64,000 nt of DNA, from assembly GCF_001989615.1 (NCBI RefSeq), contig NZ_CP019067.1, positions 124,001 through 188,000 of the forward strand, read 5' to 3'. The notes beneath the pieces were generated by a model that was not told the origin of the DNA, did no database searches, and saw only the letters and a list, made by a program, of their open reading frames with translations. Shown in pieces: positions 55,043 to 60,356 of the stretch; the stretch's first letter is position 1; each line of letters starts with the position of its first letter. The DNA comes from Halorientalis sp. IM1011. GTDB lineage: Archaea; Halobacteriota; Halobacteria; Halobacteriales; Haloarculaceae. Position numbers and translations under genes: made by a program.

Positions 55043-56047
55043 CTATCCCTGTGCGCCGAACCACTGCTCGGCCAGCCAGGAGTCGTAGTCCTCCTGTGAC
55101 CTGACATCCACGGATCCGAGCATACCCGAGTGGCCGACGCCACAGTACTCGGCGCAGTAGAGCTGATACTCGCCGGTCGACTGGGCCTTGGTGACGAGAT
55201 AGTTCGACTGGCCCGGCAGCGCGTCGGTCTTGAGTCCCAGTTCGGGGACGTGGAACGAGTGCAGCCAGTCCCGGGAGGTGATGTTCAGCCGGACGTTCCG
55301 CTCGTTCGGCATGACCATCGTGTTGGTACTCTGGATGGTCGCGTCCGAGATAGTCGCGTCCTCGACGGCCGCCCCACTGACGGTCACGTCGGAGAACGTG
55401 ACGGTCTCGCCGGTGCGGTTCTCGTACTGGCTCGCGTTTCCGGCTCCGGCAGTCACCGTCCCGTTGACGAGTGAGGCGCTCTCGAGCGCCCCGTCGGTGG
55501 CACTGGAGGCGGAACCACCCGATATTACGATCCCTTCGTCAGTGACGTTCTCGACGGTTGCACCTTCTATCGAGGCGTTCGTCAGCGCCACGTCGGTCGC
55601 GCTCGCACCGTCGACACTCACGTTCCGGTAGACGAAGTTCCAGTTGTACTTCTGGCCGTACACTTCGATCTCTTCGGCTGCATCGCCGGGGAGTTCGTTC
55701 TGTGACTCGGCGGCCACGTAGGGATTCCCGAGCACCTGATAGGAGGCGACGCCGACGAAAAGGAGGATGATCGCCGTCGCGATGGTCCATGTGATCTCGA
55801 GTCGACGGTTCTCCTGGGTCGGCTTGGCCTCCTCGGTCTTCCGGTACTTCCAGACGGTGTAGATCAGGATCCCCTCGACGAGGATCGTGATCGGGACCGC
55901 CACGTAGATCAGGTTGCTGTTCAGCCCCTGGATGGCTGCATCGGTGGTCGACGAGTACGTCGACTGGGCAGCGGCGGGTTCGACCGCCAGCAGCCCCAGT
56001 ACAGCACCGAAAAGCGCCAACGCCCCGGCACGCTTGCGGTTCATCAT
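55043..56047 (-). CDS. coxB: Cytochrome c oxidase subunit II (CoxB) with a large insertion in the cupredoxin domain
   Basis: 334 residues. The signal peptide is at 1-28, with helices at about 45-67 and 87-108. The CuA domain has DWLHSFHVPELGLKTDALPGQSN with ligand H263, and YCAEYCGVGHSGM with ligands C298, E300, C302, H306 and M309, so the binuclear copper site is complete. Between the strand VYGQKYNWNFVYRN and MVMPNERNVRLNITSRDW is a 100-residue insert (about 142-244) of short repeats, VDGASATDVALTNASIEGAT-like, reminiscent of beta-helix or pentapeptide coils. Subunit II accepts electrons from halocyanin or cytochrome c. A TATA box at 56071-56080 supports the start. Subunit I is not in the window. 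Confidence 0.9.
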   Translation of the reverse strand: MMNRKRAGALALFGAVLGLLAVEPAAAQSTYSSTTDAAIQGLNSNLIYVAVPITILVEGILIYTVWKYRKTEEAKPTQENRRLEITWTIATAIILLFVGVASYQVLGNPYVAAESQNELPGDAAEEIEVYGQKYNWNFVYRNVSVDGASATDVALTNASIEGATVENVTDEGIVISGGSASSATDGALESASLVNGTVTAGAGNASQYENRTGETVTFSDVTVSGAAVEDATISDATIQSTNTMVMPNERNVRLNITSRDWLHSFHVPELGLKTDALPGQSNYLVTKAQSTGEYQLYCAEYCGVGHSGMLGSVDVRSQEDYDSWLAEQWFGAQG

Positions 56048-56070
56048 TACGCGGGGGTTAGGAAGTGGGC

Positions 56071-56080
56071 CATAAATAGC
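56071..56080 (-). promoter_or_regulatory. TATA box of coxB
   Basis: GCTATTTATG on the minus strand, 24-33 nt before the ATG at 56047, typical for a leaderless transcript. Confidence 0.7.
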
Positions 56081-56192
56081 TGCTGTCTTCCGGCGAGTCC
56101 GGCCCCCGTGCGACGGTTCCACGCGACGACAGTTCGGTGCCGACCGACCGAAAGCGCGGGTCATAAGTACGGTCACACCAAGATTCGAGGTA

Positions 56193-57623
56193 GTGAGAGG
56201 TACAGCCGTGATCGAACGCGTTCGTCCCCGTTTCGCGACCCTTCTGGCCGGATCGGCCGTCGGTGTCTACCTGCTCGTAGTCGCGGGCGCGACAGCGTCC
56301 ATCGCGGACGCCGCGAGCGCCTGCTCGGCGTGGCCTGTGTGTTCCCGCCCGCCGTCACTGGCCGAACCCACCCTGCTCGTCGCCTGGGGACATCGCGTGG
56401 CTGCCGTCCTCGTAGGACTGATCGTGCTGGCCACCGCGGCGGTCGGCCTGACCCGAGCCAGCGTCTCGCGACGCGTGAAGGGCGCGCTCGCGTTCGCGTT
56501 CGTTCTCTTCCCCGTGCAGATCGCGCTCGGCGCACAGGTCGCGACGACCGGTGCCGCCGACCCGTTCCCGGCGGCCCACCTGCTTACCGGCATGGGAATC
56601 TTCGTCGGGTTGACGCTTGCGCTCGCGTGGCAACTCGAACCGCGCGACGCCGACGAGCCGGCGACCGAGCCCGACCCCGAACCGGCTCCGACCGCCACTC
56701 CGCAGCCCGAATCGACCGAGCAGCCACCCCTCCCGGATAGCTCGTTCGCGCGTGCGAAACACGTCGCCGGGGCGTACTTCCGGCTGATGAAGCCCCGGCT
56801 GATGTGGCTGCTCTGTCTCGTCGCCTCTGCCGGGATGGCGCTGGCGGCCGGGACCGCCGGAATGGACCTGACGGTCCAGACCATCGTGTTGACCCTCGGC
56901 GGCGGCGTCCTCGCCATCGGCGCGAGCGGGACCTTCAACCACGTCCTCGAACGTGACCGGGACAAGAAGATGGACCGGACGAGCGACCGACCGGTTGCGA
57001 CCCACCAGCTCCCCGTCCGCAACGCCGTCGCGTTCGGACTGGCACTGGCGGCCGCCTCCGTCGCCGTCTTCCTGCAGGTGAACCCGCTCGCGGCCGCCCT
57101 CGGGCTCTCGGCGATCCTGTATTACAGCGTGATCTACACGCTCGTGCTCAAACCCAACACGGTCCAGAACACGGTCATCGGCGGTGGCGCCGGCGCGCTG
57201 CCCGCCCTGATCGGCTCGGCGGCGGTGACCGGCACCGTCGGCCTGCCGGGACTCGTGCTGGCCGGTGTCATCTTCGTCTGGACGCCCGCGCACTTCTACA
57301 ACCTCGCGCTCGCGTACAAGGACGACTACGCCCGTGGCGGCTTCCCGATGATGCCGGTGGTCCGCGGTGAAGCGACCACCCGCAAACACATCCTGCTGTG
57401 GCTGGCTGCGACGCTGCTGGCCGCGGCCGCACTGGCCGCCCTGACGAACCTCGGCTGGGTGTACGCCGTCACGACCATCGGGCTCGGGTCGGTGTTCCTG
57501 TGGGCGGTCGTCAGACTCCACCGCGAGCGCGACGAGTCCGCGGCGTTCCGGGCGTTCCACGCCTCGAACGCCTACCTCGGGGCGCTCCTGCTCGCAATCG
57601 TCGTCGACACCCTCGTGGTATGA
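56193..57623 (+). CDS. ctaB: Heme O synthase (CtaB) with an N-terminal half-CtaA (heme A synthase-like) domain
   Basis: 476 residues from a GTG (another GTG at 56208). The C-terminal 290 residues are a UbiA-type farnesyltransferase: KPRLMWLLCLVASAG, NHVLERDRDKKMDRTSDRPV (first Asp motif) and YKDDYARGGFPMMPVV (second). The N-terminal 150 residues have four helices and read like one half of CtaA: an extracellular CSAWPVC matching the CxxWPxC disulfide loop, a heme-ligand-type GHRVAAVLVG and a second His in AAHLLTGMG. The Glu of CtaA's ExxH motif is Ala here (AWGH). A Pro/Glu-rich linker joins the two parts. Acts in heme O/A synthesis for the oxidase; divergent from coxB. Confidence 0.88.
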   Translation: MRGTAVIERVRPRFATLLAGSAVGVYLLVVAGATASIADAASACSAWPVCSRPPSLAEPTLLVAWGHRVAAVLVGLIVLATAAVGLTRASVSRRVKGALAFAFVLFPVQIALGAQVATTGAADPFPAAHLLTGMGIFVGLTLALAWQLEPRDADEPATEPDPEPAPTATPQPESTEQPPLPDSSFARAKHVAGAYFRLMKPRLMWLLCLVASAGMALAAGTAGMDLTVQTIVLTLGGGVLAIGASGTFNHVLERDRDKKMDRTSDRPVATHQLPVRNAVAFGLALAAASVAVFLQVNPLAAALGLSAILYYSVIYTLVLKPNTVQNTVIGGGAGALPALIGSAAVTGTVGLPGLVLAGVIFVWTPAHFYNLALAYKDDYARGGFPMMPVVRGEATTRKHILLWLAATLLAAAALAALTNLGWVYAVTTIGLGSVFLWAVVRLHRERDESAAFRAFHASNAYLGALLLAIVVDTLVV

Positions 57624-58306
57624 CTACCGACGCAACGATCACCGATCGGCTCGCGGGACTCAGACCGGACCGGGAGGAGTTACTGATCGCTCTGCTGATC
57701 TTGAACTCCGAGTTGCTCCTGCTGGGCGTGTACTGGGTCGTCAGTTCGGCCGAACTGACGGGAACCCTCGCGATCCGGTACTGGATCTACCCGTTCGTCT
57801 GGATCAACGTCGGCCTGCTGGCCATCGTCAAGACGACGCCCGTGGCCGCCAGCAGCCGGGACCGCTGGCTCGCCGGTGCCATCGCGGTCGGCTACTTCGC
57901 GGTGCTTGCGTACGTCGGCGGCCTCGTCGGCCCCGACATCAGCATGGCCGAAAAGAACCTCAGTCTCACGGTGCTGGGGCTGCCGCCGGGCTGGGCACCG
58001 ACGCTTCTGTACAACGGGTCGTATTTCGCGATGTCACTGATCCCGTTCAAGCTGGTCGGCTACGCCGCGCTGGCGTATCTGGTGTACGCGACGGTGCTCG
58101 ACGCGGCTGGCTCCGCGGTGACGGGCCTGCTCGGCCTGCTCTCCTGTGTCAGTTGCACCTGGCCTGTGCTGGCCACAGTGGCATCCAGTCTCCTGGGAAG
58201 CGGGACTGCAATCGCCGGCGCAGTGACCGCCCAGTCCTACGGCATCTCGACCGTGGTGTTCGTGGTGACGGTCGGGCTGCTGTACTGGCGGCCGTTCGGC
58301 CGCTGA
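57620..58306 (+). CDS. Multi-pass membrane protein of the oxidase cluster (possibly DUF7546)
   Basis: 228 residues with six helices. The start overlaps the ctaB stop as ATGA, so it is coexpressed with heme synthesis. It has NSELLLLGVYWVVSS, a loop SMAEKNLSLTVLGLPPGWAPTLLYNGSYF, and SCVSCTWPVLATVASSLLG with two Cys in a CVSC motif within a helix, which could bind metal. I recall similar proteins beside haloarchaeal ctaB as DUF7546. Its position suggests a role in cytochrome oxidase assembly, but that is inference. Confidence 0.72.
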   Translation: MTTDATITDRLAGLRPDREELLIALLILNSELLLLGVYWVVSSAELTGTLAIRYWIYPFVWINVGLLAIVKTTPVAASSRDRWLAGAIAVGYFAVLAYVGGLVGPDISMAEKNLSLTVLGLPPGWAPTLLYNGSYFAMSLIPFKLVGYAALAYLVYATVLDAAGSAVTGLLGLLSCVSCTWPVLATVASSLLGSGTAIAGAVTAQSYGISTVVFVVTVGLLYWRPFGR

Positions 58307-58343
58307 CGGACGGGCTTTTCCCCGCTGCACCCGAACTGCGAGT

Positions 58344-58574
58344 ATGACCGAGGTCGAGATCGAATACTGCGTCCCCTGTGGCTTCCTCGATCGCGCCGAG
58401 AACGTCCAGCACGTCCTGCTCTCGACGTTTGGCGAGAAACTGGACGCGGTGACGTTGCGAACCGGCGCGAACGGTGTGTTCCGCGTGACCGTCGACGGCG
58501 AACGGGTGTTCGACAAACAGGAAGACGCGTTCGACGTGGACGAGATAACCCGGCAGGTTCGCGAGTACGTCTGA
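58344..58574 (+). CDS. Rdx/SelW-like thioredoxin-fold protein
   Basis: 76 residues. VEIEYCVPCGFLDRAENVQHVLLSTFGEKLDAVTLRTGANGVFRVTVDG is the Rdx (selenoprotein W-type) pattern with CVPC as the redox motif in place of CxxU. Rdx proteins are small thioredoxin-fold oxidoreductases of uncertain target. It follows the oxidase-cluster gene by 37 bp on the same strand. Confidence 0.88.
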   Translation: MTEVEIEYCVPCGFLDRAENVQHVLLSTFGEKLDAVTLRTGANGVFRVTVDGERVFDKQEDAFDVDEITRQVREYV

Positions 58575-58623
58575 CCGGTCCCGAATCGACGGGCTTAGGA
58601 CGGATCCGGACCCCGATTCGACA

Positions 58624-59586
58624 ATGACAGCAGCCGTCGTCGCCGAGGACGTTCGTCGGAGCTACGGCGACACGACCGCACTCGACGGCGTCTCGCTCAC
58701 GGTCGACGAGGGGGACGTGTTCGCGCTGATCGGGCCCAACGGCGCGGGAAAGACCACCCTCGTCCGGGCACTGCTCGGTACCACCGACGCCGAGGGGACG
58801 GTCGAGGTGTTCGGGAAATCGCCCCGCGAGGTCGAGCGGGCGCGACTCGGCTCGCTCCCTCAGTCGTTCGATCCGCCCGCCCGGCTCACCGCCCGTGAAC
58901 TGCTCGACTACTACGGCGGGCTCTACGACGACGCCCGCCCGGTCGACGACGTGCTGGCCGACGTGGGACTCGCCGAGGACGCCGATACCTGGTACGAGAA
59001 CCTCTCCGGTGGCCAACAGCGCCGTGTCTGTGTCGGGACGGCGCTGGTCAACGACCCCGACCTGCTCGTGCTCGACGAACCGACGACGGGCATCGACCCC
59101 GCAGGTCGGCGGGCACTCTGGCGGCTGATCGAGGATCTCGCTGCCGGCGGGACGACGGTCTTTCTGACGACCCACTACATGGCCGAAGCGGAACGACTGG
59201 CCGACGAGGTGGGCCTGCTGGCCGACGGCCGACTCGTCGCCCGCGACTCGCCGGCGGCGCTGATCGCCGAGCACGGCGGGGAGAGTCGACTGGTGATCGA
59301 CACCGACGCCGAGCCTGCGATCACCGGTGATCTGGGTTACCCCGCCGAACTCGCCGAGGGCCGGCTGACGGTCTACGACGTGCCGCCCGAGGAGATCGGC
59401 GAGGTCGTCGCCGCCCTCGATTCGGCCGGGGCGACCTGCGACTCGATCGAGTGGACCGAACCCGACCTCGAAGACGTGTACCTGGATCTGACGGGGCAAG
59501 CTGTCACGGCGAGCGGCGAGACGGTCAGCCGCGGGGAGACGCCGCTGGCCGACGGTGGCAAAGTAACTGGAGGTGACCGATCGTGA
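58624..59586 (+). CDS. ABC transporter ATP-binding protein (exporter type)
   Basis: 320 residues. Walker A LIGPNGAGKTTLVRAL (about 39), signature LSGGQQRRVCVGTAL (about 126), Walker B LLVLDEPTTGIDPAGRR and switch His TTHYMAEAERLADEVG are complete. The C-terminal 100 residues form the regulatory extension found with ABC-2 permeases. CTTAGG about 28 nt upstream is a weak TATA. The following permease overlaps by GTGA. Being in the oxidase block, heme, copper or lipid transport are possibilities, none demonstrated. Confidence 0.92.
   Translation: MTAAVVAEDVRRSYGDTTALDGVSLTVDEGDVFALIGPNGAGKTTLVRALLGTTDAEGTVEVFGKSPREVERARLGSLPQSFDPPARLTARELLDYYGGLYDDARPVDDVLADVGLAEDADTWYENLSGGQQRRVCVGTALVNDPDLLVLDEPTTGIDPAGRRALWRLIEDLAAGGTTVFLTTHYMAEAERLADEVGLLADGRLVARDSPAALIAEHGGESRLVIDTDAEPAITGDLGYPAELAEGRLTVYDVPPEEIGEVVAALDSAGATCDSIEWTEPDLEDVYLDLTGQAVTASGETVSRGETPLADGGKVTGGDRS
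59569..59576 (+). promoter_or_regulatory. Ribosome-binding site of the ABC permease
   Basis: GGAGGTGA lies 6 nt before the GTG at 59583, inside the end of the ATPase gene. It decides the permease start and indicates translation from the internal site of the operon mRNA. Confidence 0.75.
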
Positions 59587-60356
59587 GCGCTGTCGGTCGG
59601 ATCTGGGCGGCAACCGTCGCCGCCGGGAAGTCGTTCCTCCGGCGGCGGACGGCCGTCTTCTTCACCTTCTTCTTCCCGGTGATCATCATCCTGATCTTCG
59701 GGTCGCTCGTCCAGACCGGCGCGGGCGGGACCGGCCTGTTCACCGAACCGGCGGCTTACTACGTGCCGGGCTATCTCGCGGTCGTGGTCCTGTTCACACC
59801 GCTCTCGCGGGTTGGAAGCGAGGTTGCCCGCCACCGCGAGGGCAACCAGTTCGAGAAACTGGCGACCACGCCACTCGCCAGCTGGGAGTGGCTGCTGGCC
59901 CAGACGCTGGTCAACGTGGCCATCATCGGGCTGGCCGGCCTGCTCCTGCTCGGCCTGATCGTCCTCGTGACCGGCGCCGAGATCGCGTTCTCGCCCCTGT
60001 TGATCCCGTTCGTCGGCCTCGGCGTCGCGCTGTTCTGTGGCGGGGGCGCACTGATCGGCAGTTTCGCCGGGTCACAGGACGGCGTCATCGCCGCGAGCAA
60101 CGGCATCGCCCTGCCGCTGCTCTTTCTCTCCGAGACGTTCGTCCCGCCGTCGATGCTGCCCGAGTGGTTCCGCCCCGCCATCCTGCTCTCGCCATTGACG
60201 TACTTCTCACGAGGCGTGCGGGCGGCGACCTACGGCCCGGGGATCGAACCGCTGGCAGGTCTGCCGACGGGACCGCTGTTCTACCTCGGCGTGCTGGCCG
60301 GGTTGACGCTGGTCTTCTTCGCAGGTGGGGCGGCCGCACTCCCGCGGACGGACTGA
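59583..60356 (+). CDS. ABC-2-type transporter permease
   Basis: 257 residues from a GTG. Six helices follow the ABC-2 layout: an N-terminal amphipathic segment then FFTFFFPVIIILIFGSLV, VPGYLAVVVLFTPL, REGNQFEKLATTPLASWEWLLAQTLVNVAIIGLAGLLLLG, and the last pair with PPSMLPEWFRPAILLSPLTYFSRGVRAATYG. It forms the membrane channel with the preceding ATPase and is translationally coupled to it. Substrate unknown. Confidence 0.9.
   Translation: MSAVGRIWAATVAAGKSFLRRRTAVFFTFFFPVIIILIFGSLVQTGAGGTGLFTEPAAYYVPGYLAVVVLFTPLSRVGSEVARHREGNQFEKLATTPLASWEWLLAQTLVNVAIIGLAGLLLLGLIVLVTGAEIAFSPLLIPFVGLGVALFCGGGALIGSFAGSQDGVIAASNGIALPLLFLSETFVPPSMLPEWFRPAILLSPLTYFSRGVRAATYGPGIEPLAGLPTGPLFYLGVLAGLTLVFFAGGAAALPRTD

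Follow-up and report, generated by a model that had tools for sequence, protein, structure and literature searches.

Heme A is the special heme of respiratory oxidases, and CtaA finishes its synthesis. In a recent survey (PMC12808453; Karavaeva et al., 2026), which is also our source for what Glu57 and the two heme sites do, 154 of 273 archaeal type 1A heme A synthases are reported to be fused to heme O synthase. The fusions were excluded from the alignments there, and the Glu is called strictly conserved. The survey also describes type 1A* proteins, in which H3 is Phe in 55%; most of these sequences are the sole putative synthase in their genome and their status as bona fide synthases is left open. 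Aeropyrum pernix CtaA, which consists of a Glu half only, forms a functional dimer according to PMC12808453 and PMC9145763, and the latter suggests that a bacterial complex of separate CtaA and CtaB may help heme O transfer. Glu-less fused halves, and their co-occurrence with 8-helix free proteins, are not described in the accessible sections of PMC12808453. A literature search, with subscription journals mostly outside its coverage, recognized no other paper on a fused, split or heterodimeric haloarchaeal enzyme. The first-pass annotation had allowed that the architecture found here might already be characterized as a bifunctional enzyme: the fusion of a CtaA half to CtaB is already published in the survey, and no biochemical characterization was found in the literature searched. 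The order-wide loss of the Glu in fused halves and its reciprocal retention in free halves is new here.

The window (the whole 64,000-nt stretch analyzed, from Halorientalis sp. IM1011) contains a fused CtaA half-CtaB gene that starts with GTG (Table 1). The N-terminal part of the protein matches PF02628 (COX15-CtaA) at residues 62–153 with 36.8 bits, above the curated cut-off of 29.9, which places the fused half in the COX15/CtaA family by sequence. UbiA matches residues 210–455 (200.1 bits), and the heme O synthase model TIGR01473 matches residues 194–472 with 293.8 bits vs a curated cut-off of 210.3; by that cut-off the protein belongs to CtaB/CyoE and its C-terminal domain is a predicted heme O synthase (heme B farnesylation). 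All eight genomes of the genus carry the same fusion, so it is not a chance event. Among named fused halves, the closest comes from Halorientalis persicus (89%).

Table 1. Features of the fused gene and its neighbors, in window coordinates.
Feature	Position	Strand	Basis
Cytochrome c oxidase subunit II (coxB), divergent to fused gene	55043..56176	-	TIGR02866, 187.4 bits
Fused gene: CtaA half + linker + CtaB (predicted heme O synthase), 476 aa	56193..57623	+	ORF; PF02628/UbiA/TIGR01473; AlphaFold2
CtaA half, residues 1–150, four helices	56193..56642	+	AlphaFold2 of half alone; best PDB match 6a2j
CSAWPVC, Cys44 + Cys50 pair	56322..56342	+	Invariant in 50 fused halves
A64-W-G-H67-R; Ala at CtaA Glu57 place, His67 at H1 position	56382..56396	+	Genus survey and named loci
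His129, H2-type heme-ligand position of CtaA half	56577..56579	+	Invariant in 50 fused halves
Pro/Glu-rich linker, residues 151–183	56643..56741	+	Low pLDDT blocks
CtaB (UbiA-type, predicted heme O synthase) domain, residues 184–476	56742..57620	+	TIGR01473; UbiA folds, e.g., 6m31
DUF7546 membrane protein, start overlaps stop of fused gene	57620..58306	+	PF24412, 278.2 bits

AlphaFold2 modeled the whole chain with a mean pLDDT of 89.4 and a pTM of 0.88. The CtaA half forms helices at residues 12–33, 59–87, 93–119 and 125–148, followed by the lower-confidence linker and the CtaB bundle. Foldseek and VIA-align lists for the whole chain were filled by UbiA folds (e.g., 6m31, Z 28.9). Modeled alone, the CtaA half reached a pLDDT of 91.7 and its sole PDB match under E 0.001 was 6a2j, the Bacillus subtilis heme A synthase (TM 0.74), as expected of a CtaA fold. 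The structure prediction proposed in the first-pass annotation thus returned a CtaA-like bundle. Its description of the gene, a CtaA half with four helices, a Cys pair and two heme-ligand-like histidines followed by a linker and a complete CtaB, is borne out by the profile matches, the AlphaFold2 models and an alignment of 50 fused halves, in which Cys44, Cys50, His67 and His129 are invariant. In the same alignment, A64 falls at the Glu position.

We searched 391 genomes of the class with PF02628 and 387 matched. One genome per genus was then chosen by completeness and contig number (86 total, 84 with matches); these representatives were searched with a profile built from 27 halves and the matches were read individually. 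Before counting, we dropped second-domain rows without motif columns (including a broken CtaB piece, L247, of genome G303), all loci that did not belong to the 86 representatives, and repeated rows for a single domain within a genome. The Glu position in the 93 fused halves is occupied by Ala in 74, Val in 12, Phe in six, Ile in one and Glu in none. The Glu is present in 87 of the 88 free halves. The idea that Ala64 is an oddity of the window's gene was ruled out, as the absence of the Glu is order-wide. A separate collection of 80 named fused loci gave Ala in 78, Val in one, Tyr in one and no Glu; two of the Ala loci (L299, ALGHH and L332, AIGHR) were missed by the motif pattern search and were read by eye. 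A draw of 392 genomes from the phylum yielded 80 with matches, 79 inside the order and one outside (G615). The sole Glu-less free half is a contig-end fragment in G303, most likely a broken fused gene, since a CtaB remnant lies at the end of another contig. Fused gene and free half occur together in 83 of the 84 genera with matches, and the 84th is represented by G303, which has a free Glu half plus contig-broken pieces resembling a fused gene.

Apart from the Glu, the fused halves keep the key residues (His at H1 in 92/93, His at H2 in 93/93 and the Cys pair in 91/93). One reading of this retention is that the fused half is an active synthase in which another residue, e.g., D39, replaces Glu57, so that a single chain would carry heme B through to heme A. 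D39 lies before the first Cys, and 68 of 90 fused halves have D or E there, which gives this reading some room; the position falls outside helix 2 and is not conserved in the other halves, and the reading leaves unexplained why every complete free half in the same genomes keeps its Glu. We regard it as hardly credible. The first-pass annotation had also asked whether the Glu is located elsewhere in the domain. Among 90 fused halves, no other conserved acidic residue was found in helix 2; outside that helix, the position of E149, where helix 4 ends, holds E or D in 88 of the 90. Its proposal that a single chain could take heme B to heme O and heme A is opposed by the separate free Glu half in the same genome and by the pairing of both genes across the genera. 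Its more cautious suggestion, that the half without Glu might be a heme-binding or delivery domain, fared better: such a half is unlikely to be a complete synthase alone and a heme-binding role fits it, because the heme-ligand-type His and the Cys pair are kept. An active one-chain pathway is the part that found no support.

In addition to the main fused gene, some genomes carry another CtaA-half-CtaB fusion in which the Glu position is Phe (FWGHR, FWAHR or FWSHR; L180, L224, L243, L244, L220 and L235; genomes G043, G076, G103, G223, G344 and G386). Degenerate second fused copies, which retain a CtaB match although the HR motif or the Cys pair of their half is gone, were found in G017 (L187, AAAHH, no Cys pair) and G195 (L246, ARGHY). 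These degenerate copies would be in line with the fused half being a decaying remnant that anchors CtaB in the membrane or helps it fold. The presence of the ligand-type His and Cys in nearly all copies from 83 genera and the prediction of a well-formed CtaA-like bundle make this reading very improbable. CtaB without the extension was not found among the 150 CtaB matches listed from 136 genomes, all of which lie in frames of at least 424 aa.

A family search found two CtaA genes in the genome of the window, the fused one and a free gene located ~2.5 Mb away on the same contig. The free 169-aa protein has VEWFHR, a Cys pair (CGARWPLC) and a later His. This search returned no full-length canonical CtaA, and the presence of one elsewhere in this genome was rejected; the first-pass annotation had proposed to survey haloarchaeal genomes for a separate one. 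In G365, a genome of the same genus (150 contigs, 91% complete), only the fused gene was found in the protein search. Across the order, the free halves keep the Glu, the Cys pair and both His. By size, the free protein falls in the 4-helix class in 17 representatives and in the 8-helix class in 70 (both in three), the class being set by the length after the half (90 aa or more) rather than predicted from helices. The 8-helix proteins have a second part whose best His column reaches 24/70 and best Cys column 2/70 (the N-half's own His excluded), so these proteins seem to have no heme b site. This fits the type 1A* proteins of PMC12808453, which have lost a heme ligand. A His resembling H3 was seen by eye in a few genomes (G002, G010, G012, G236, G238 and G346). 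The RfcL neighborhood was considered as a locus common to 4-helix and 8-helix free genes and was rejected, being found at only 4/18 and 6/70 loci, respectively. Plasmids of Haloarcula marismortui, Halobaculum, Halorubrum, Halobacterium hubeiense and others (L012, L027, L032, L062, L063 and plasmid records) carry free Glu halves of a third kind (SCPDWPTCYGTW ... EWAHR). In G195 and G276 this type is present in addition to the fused gene and the main free gene.

Most free genes are not adjacent to the fused gene. In two lineages the gene for the Glu half runs into the start of the fused gene, with about 4 shared bases in G285 and about 46 in G021, and the resulting gene order is N-half, C-half and CtaB, as in one Thermomicrobium chain. 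The fused gene of the window lies close to an oxidase gene (Table 1), and 36 of the 80 named fused loci are flanked by a COX2 homolog. Among the same 80 loci, a homolog of DUF7546 is found in the flanks of 36, of the transporter ATPase in those of 31 and of the permease in those of 28; in the window, the DUF7546 gene is followed by an ABC-2 type transporter pair (together 57620–60356, +). In the COX2 of the window, YGQKYNWNF is separated from the HSFHVPELG part of the CuA domain by a long pentapeptide-like stretch rich in Ser, Thr and Ala. PF13576 matches this stretch only at E 0.28; a similar stretch occurs in L266 (Halorientalis salina), and the COX2 frames of most other neighbors are shorter. 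Four genomes from three genera (G001, G007, G092 and G128) gave no CtaA half, COX1 or CtaB over the cut-off and are therefore apparently without a heme-copper oxidase. Five comparison genomes have the halves, COX1 and CtaB, including one of a same-genus pair (G346 with, G092 without).

We compared the two kinds of half with those of bacterial CtaA. In phmmer searches the free half scored 50.8 bits against the N-half of 6a2j and 13.8 bits against the C-half, and the fused half showed a slight preference for the C-half (20.1 vs 17.4 bits). The free-half profile scored above the fused-half profile on 7/7 bacterial N-halves, by 6 to 29 bits; on six bacterial C-halves the two profiles were about even, from 9 bits in favor of the fused to 9 in favor of the free. 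The profile shift between N-half and C-half had the same direction in 6/6 proteins, also with the Glu masked, four of the six being related gammaproteobacteria. VIA-align placed the fused-half model on residues 158–303 of 6a2j (the C-half; Z 13.1, 2.1 Å, 141 residues), a Z score modestly above that of unrelated helical bundles (12.4) and from a program that reports one placement per chain. We took the lack of Glu at the mirror motif together with two heme-ligand His as one working mark of likeness to a C-half; the fused half has both (AWGHR, His129). Against the likeness, the Pfam model aligns the fused half of the window with its N part and the free half chiefly with its C part, a placement that is inconsistent between genomes. 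In a tree of 72 rows, with fused and 8-helix rows sampled, the fused halves form one group (100/100) and the main free halves another (98/98); the fused halves are not placed with the bacterial C-halves, and the branches are long. Given the Pfam placement and the tree, our claim concerns how the fused half works, namely like a C-half, and does not extend to its descent. It may bind low-spin heme b and pair with the Glu half.

The heme A synthase of haloarchaea is probably a heteromer encoded by two genes, with an N-like free half and a C-like half fused to CtaB. This reading draws on what the sequences show: both kinds of half exist and the Glu is distributed reciprocally between them, their genes overlap in two lineages, and neither was found in the four genomes without oxidase. 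That most free genes lie apart from the fused gene counts against it. CtaB would farnesylate heme B to give heme O. The free half, like the N-half of bacterial CtaA, would provide the heme O site and the proposed catalytic Glu, and the fused Glu-less half, like the bacterial C-half, would hold a heme b cofactor. Heme O would go to the site formed when the free half docks with the fused half, where the Glu and His of the free half may take part in oxidizing the C8 methyl. As the fused half is joined to the heme O synthase, heme O could pass directly to the docked site. The physical pairing, the binding of heme b by the fused half and the hand-over of substrate are inferred.

The description of Aeropyrum pernix CtaA as a functional dimer argues against the split enzyme, since a free half alone might suffice. 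The free Glu half could then be a complete homo-oligomeric synthase of that kind, with the fused half a heme relay or docking adaptor that hands over heme O. Four-helix Glu halves are described as functional dimers in PMC12808453 and PMC9145763, and the free halves keep the Glu, both His and the Cys pair that such an enzyme would use. An adaptor would hardly need the constraint that keeps His and Cys in the fused halves of 83 genera; CtaB without the extension is absent among the 150 matches listed, and the degeneration of the second part in the 8-helix free proteins hints at ligands from another source. These points are indirect. We consider the homo-oligomer, the main rival, unlikely. Regarding the two-gene enzyme, we lean slightly towards its strictest form: an obligate hetero-oligomer in which the heme b half is carried covalently on CtaB as a hand-over station for heme O. 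The fused proteins counted as type 1A would then not be synthases alone, and the type 1A* protein would be a true synthase with its ligand half supplied in trans.

If this is correct, it would offer an answer to the question raised in 2026 on the type 1A* proteins and the role of the CtaB-fused four-helix proteins. The catalytic and cofactor halves of CtaA would sit on two genes, and the disputed roles of the two hemes could be tested half by half in genetically tractable haloarchaea. For genome annotation, it is a warning that the fused proteins should not be counted as heme A synthases.

The closest described systems each share part of this arrangement. Type 1A enzymes (class A, type 1.4; e.g., Aeropyrum pernix CtaA), which include the CtaB fusions in the classification of PMC12808453, have the same four-helix half with one Cys pair and two His. 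The fused half shares the four helices and the single Cys pair of the first loop; however, type 1A is defined by E57-x-x-H-R and self-dimerization, whereas the fused halves lack the Glu (AWGHR in the window; the motif is found in 0/93) and are accompanied by a free Glu half. Because it does not have the E57-x-x-H-R motif, the fused half is not classed here among the type 1A synthases. The haloarchaeal 8-helix type 1A* protein is the free Glu-bearing partner in 70 of the 84 genera; unlike the fused half, it is encoded by a separate gene and its second part has no conserved heme ligands. Bacillus subtilis CtaA (6a2j) shares the fold and a Glu-less HR motif in its C-half (VQMGHR), where the fused-half model aligns, but it has eight helices in one polypeptide and a separate CtaB. 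Among bacterial CtaA-CtaB fusions, Thermomicrobium roseum TRD_RS10990 has CtaA followed by CtaB in one chain, and its CtaB-adjacent half is Glu-less (VHLTHR) as in the fused gene of the window; it differs in that both CtaA halves are in the one chain, the first with the Glu (WIEYVHR).
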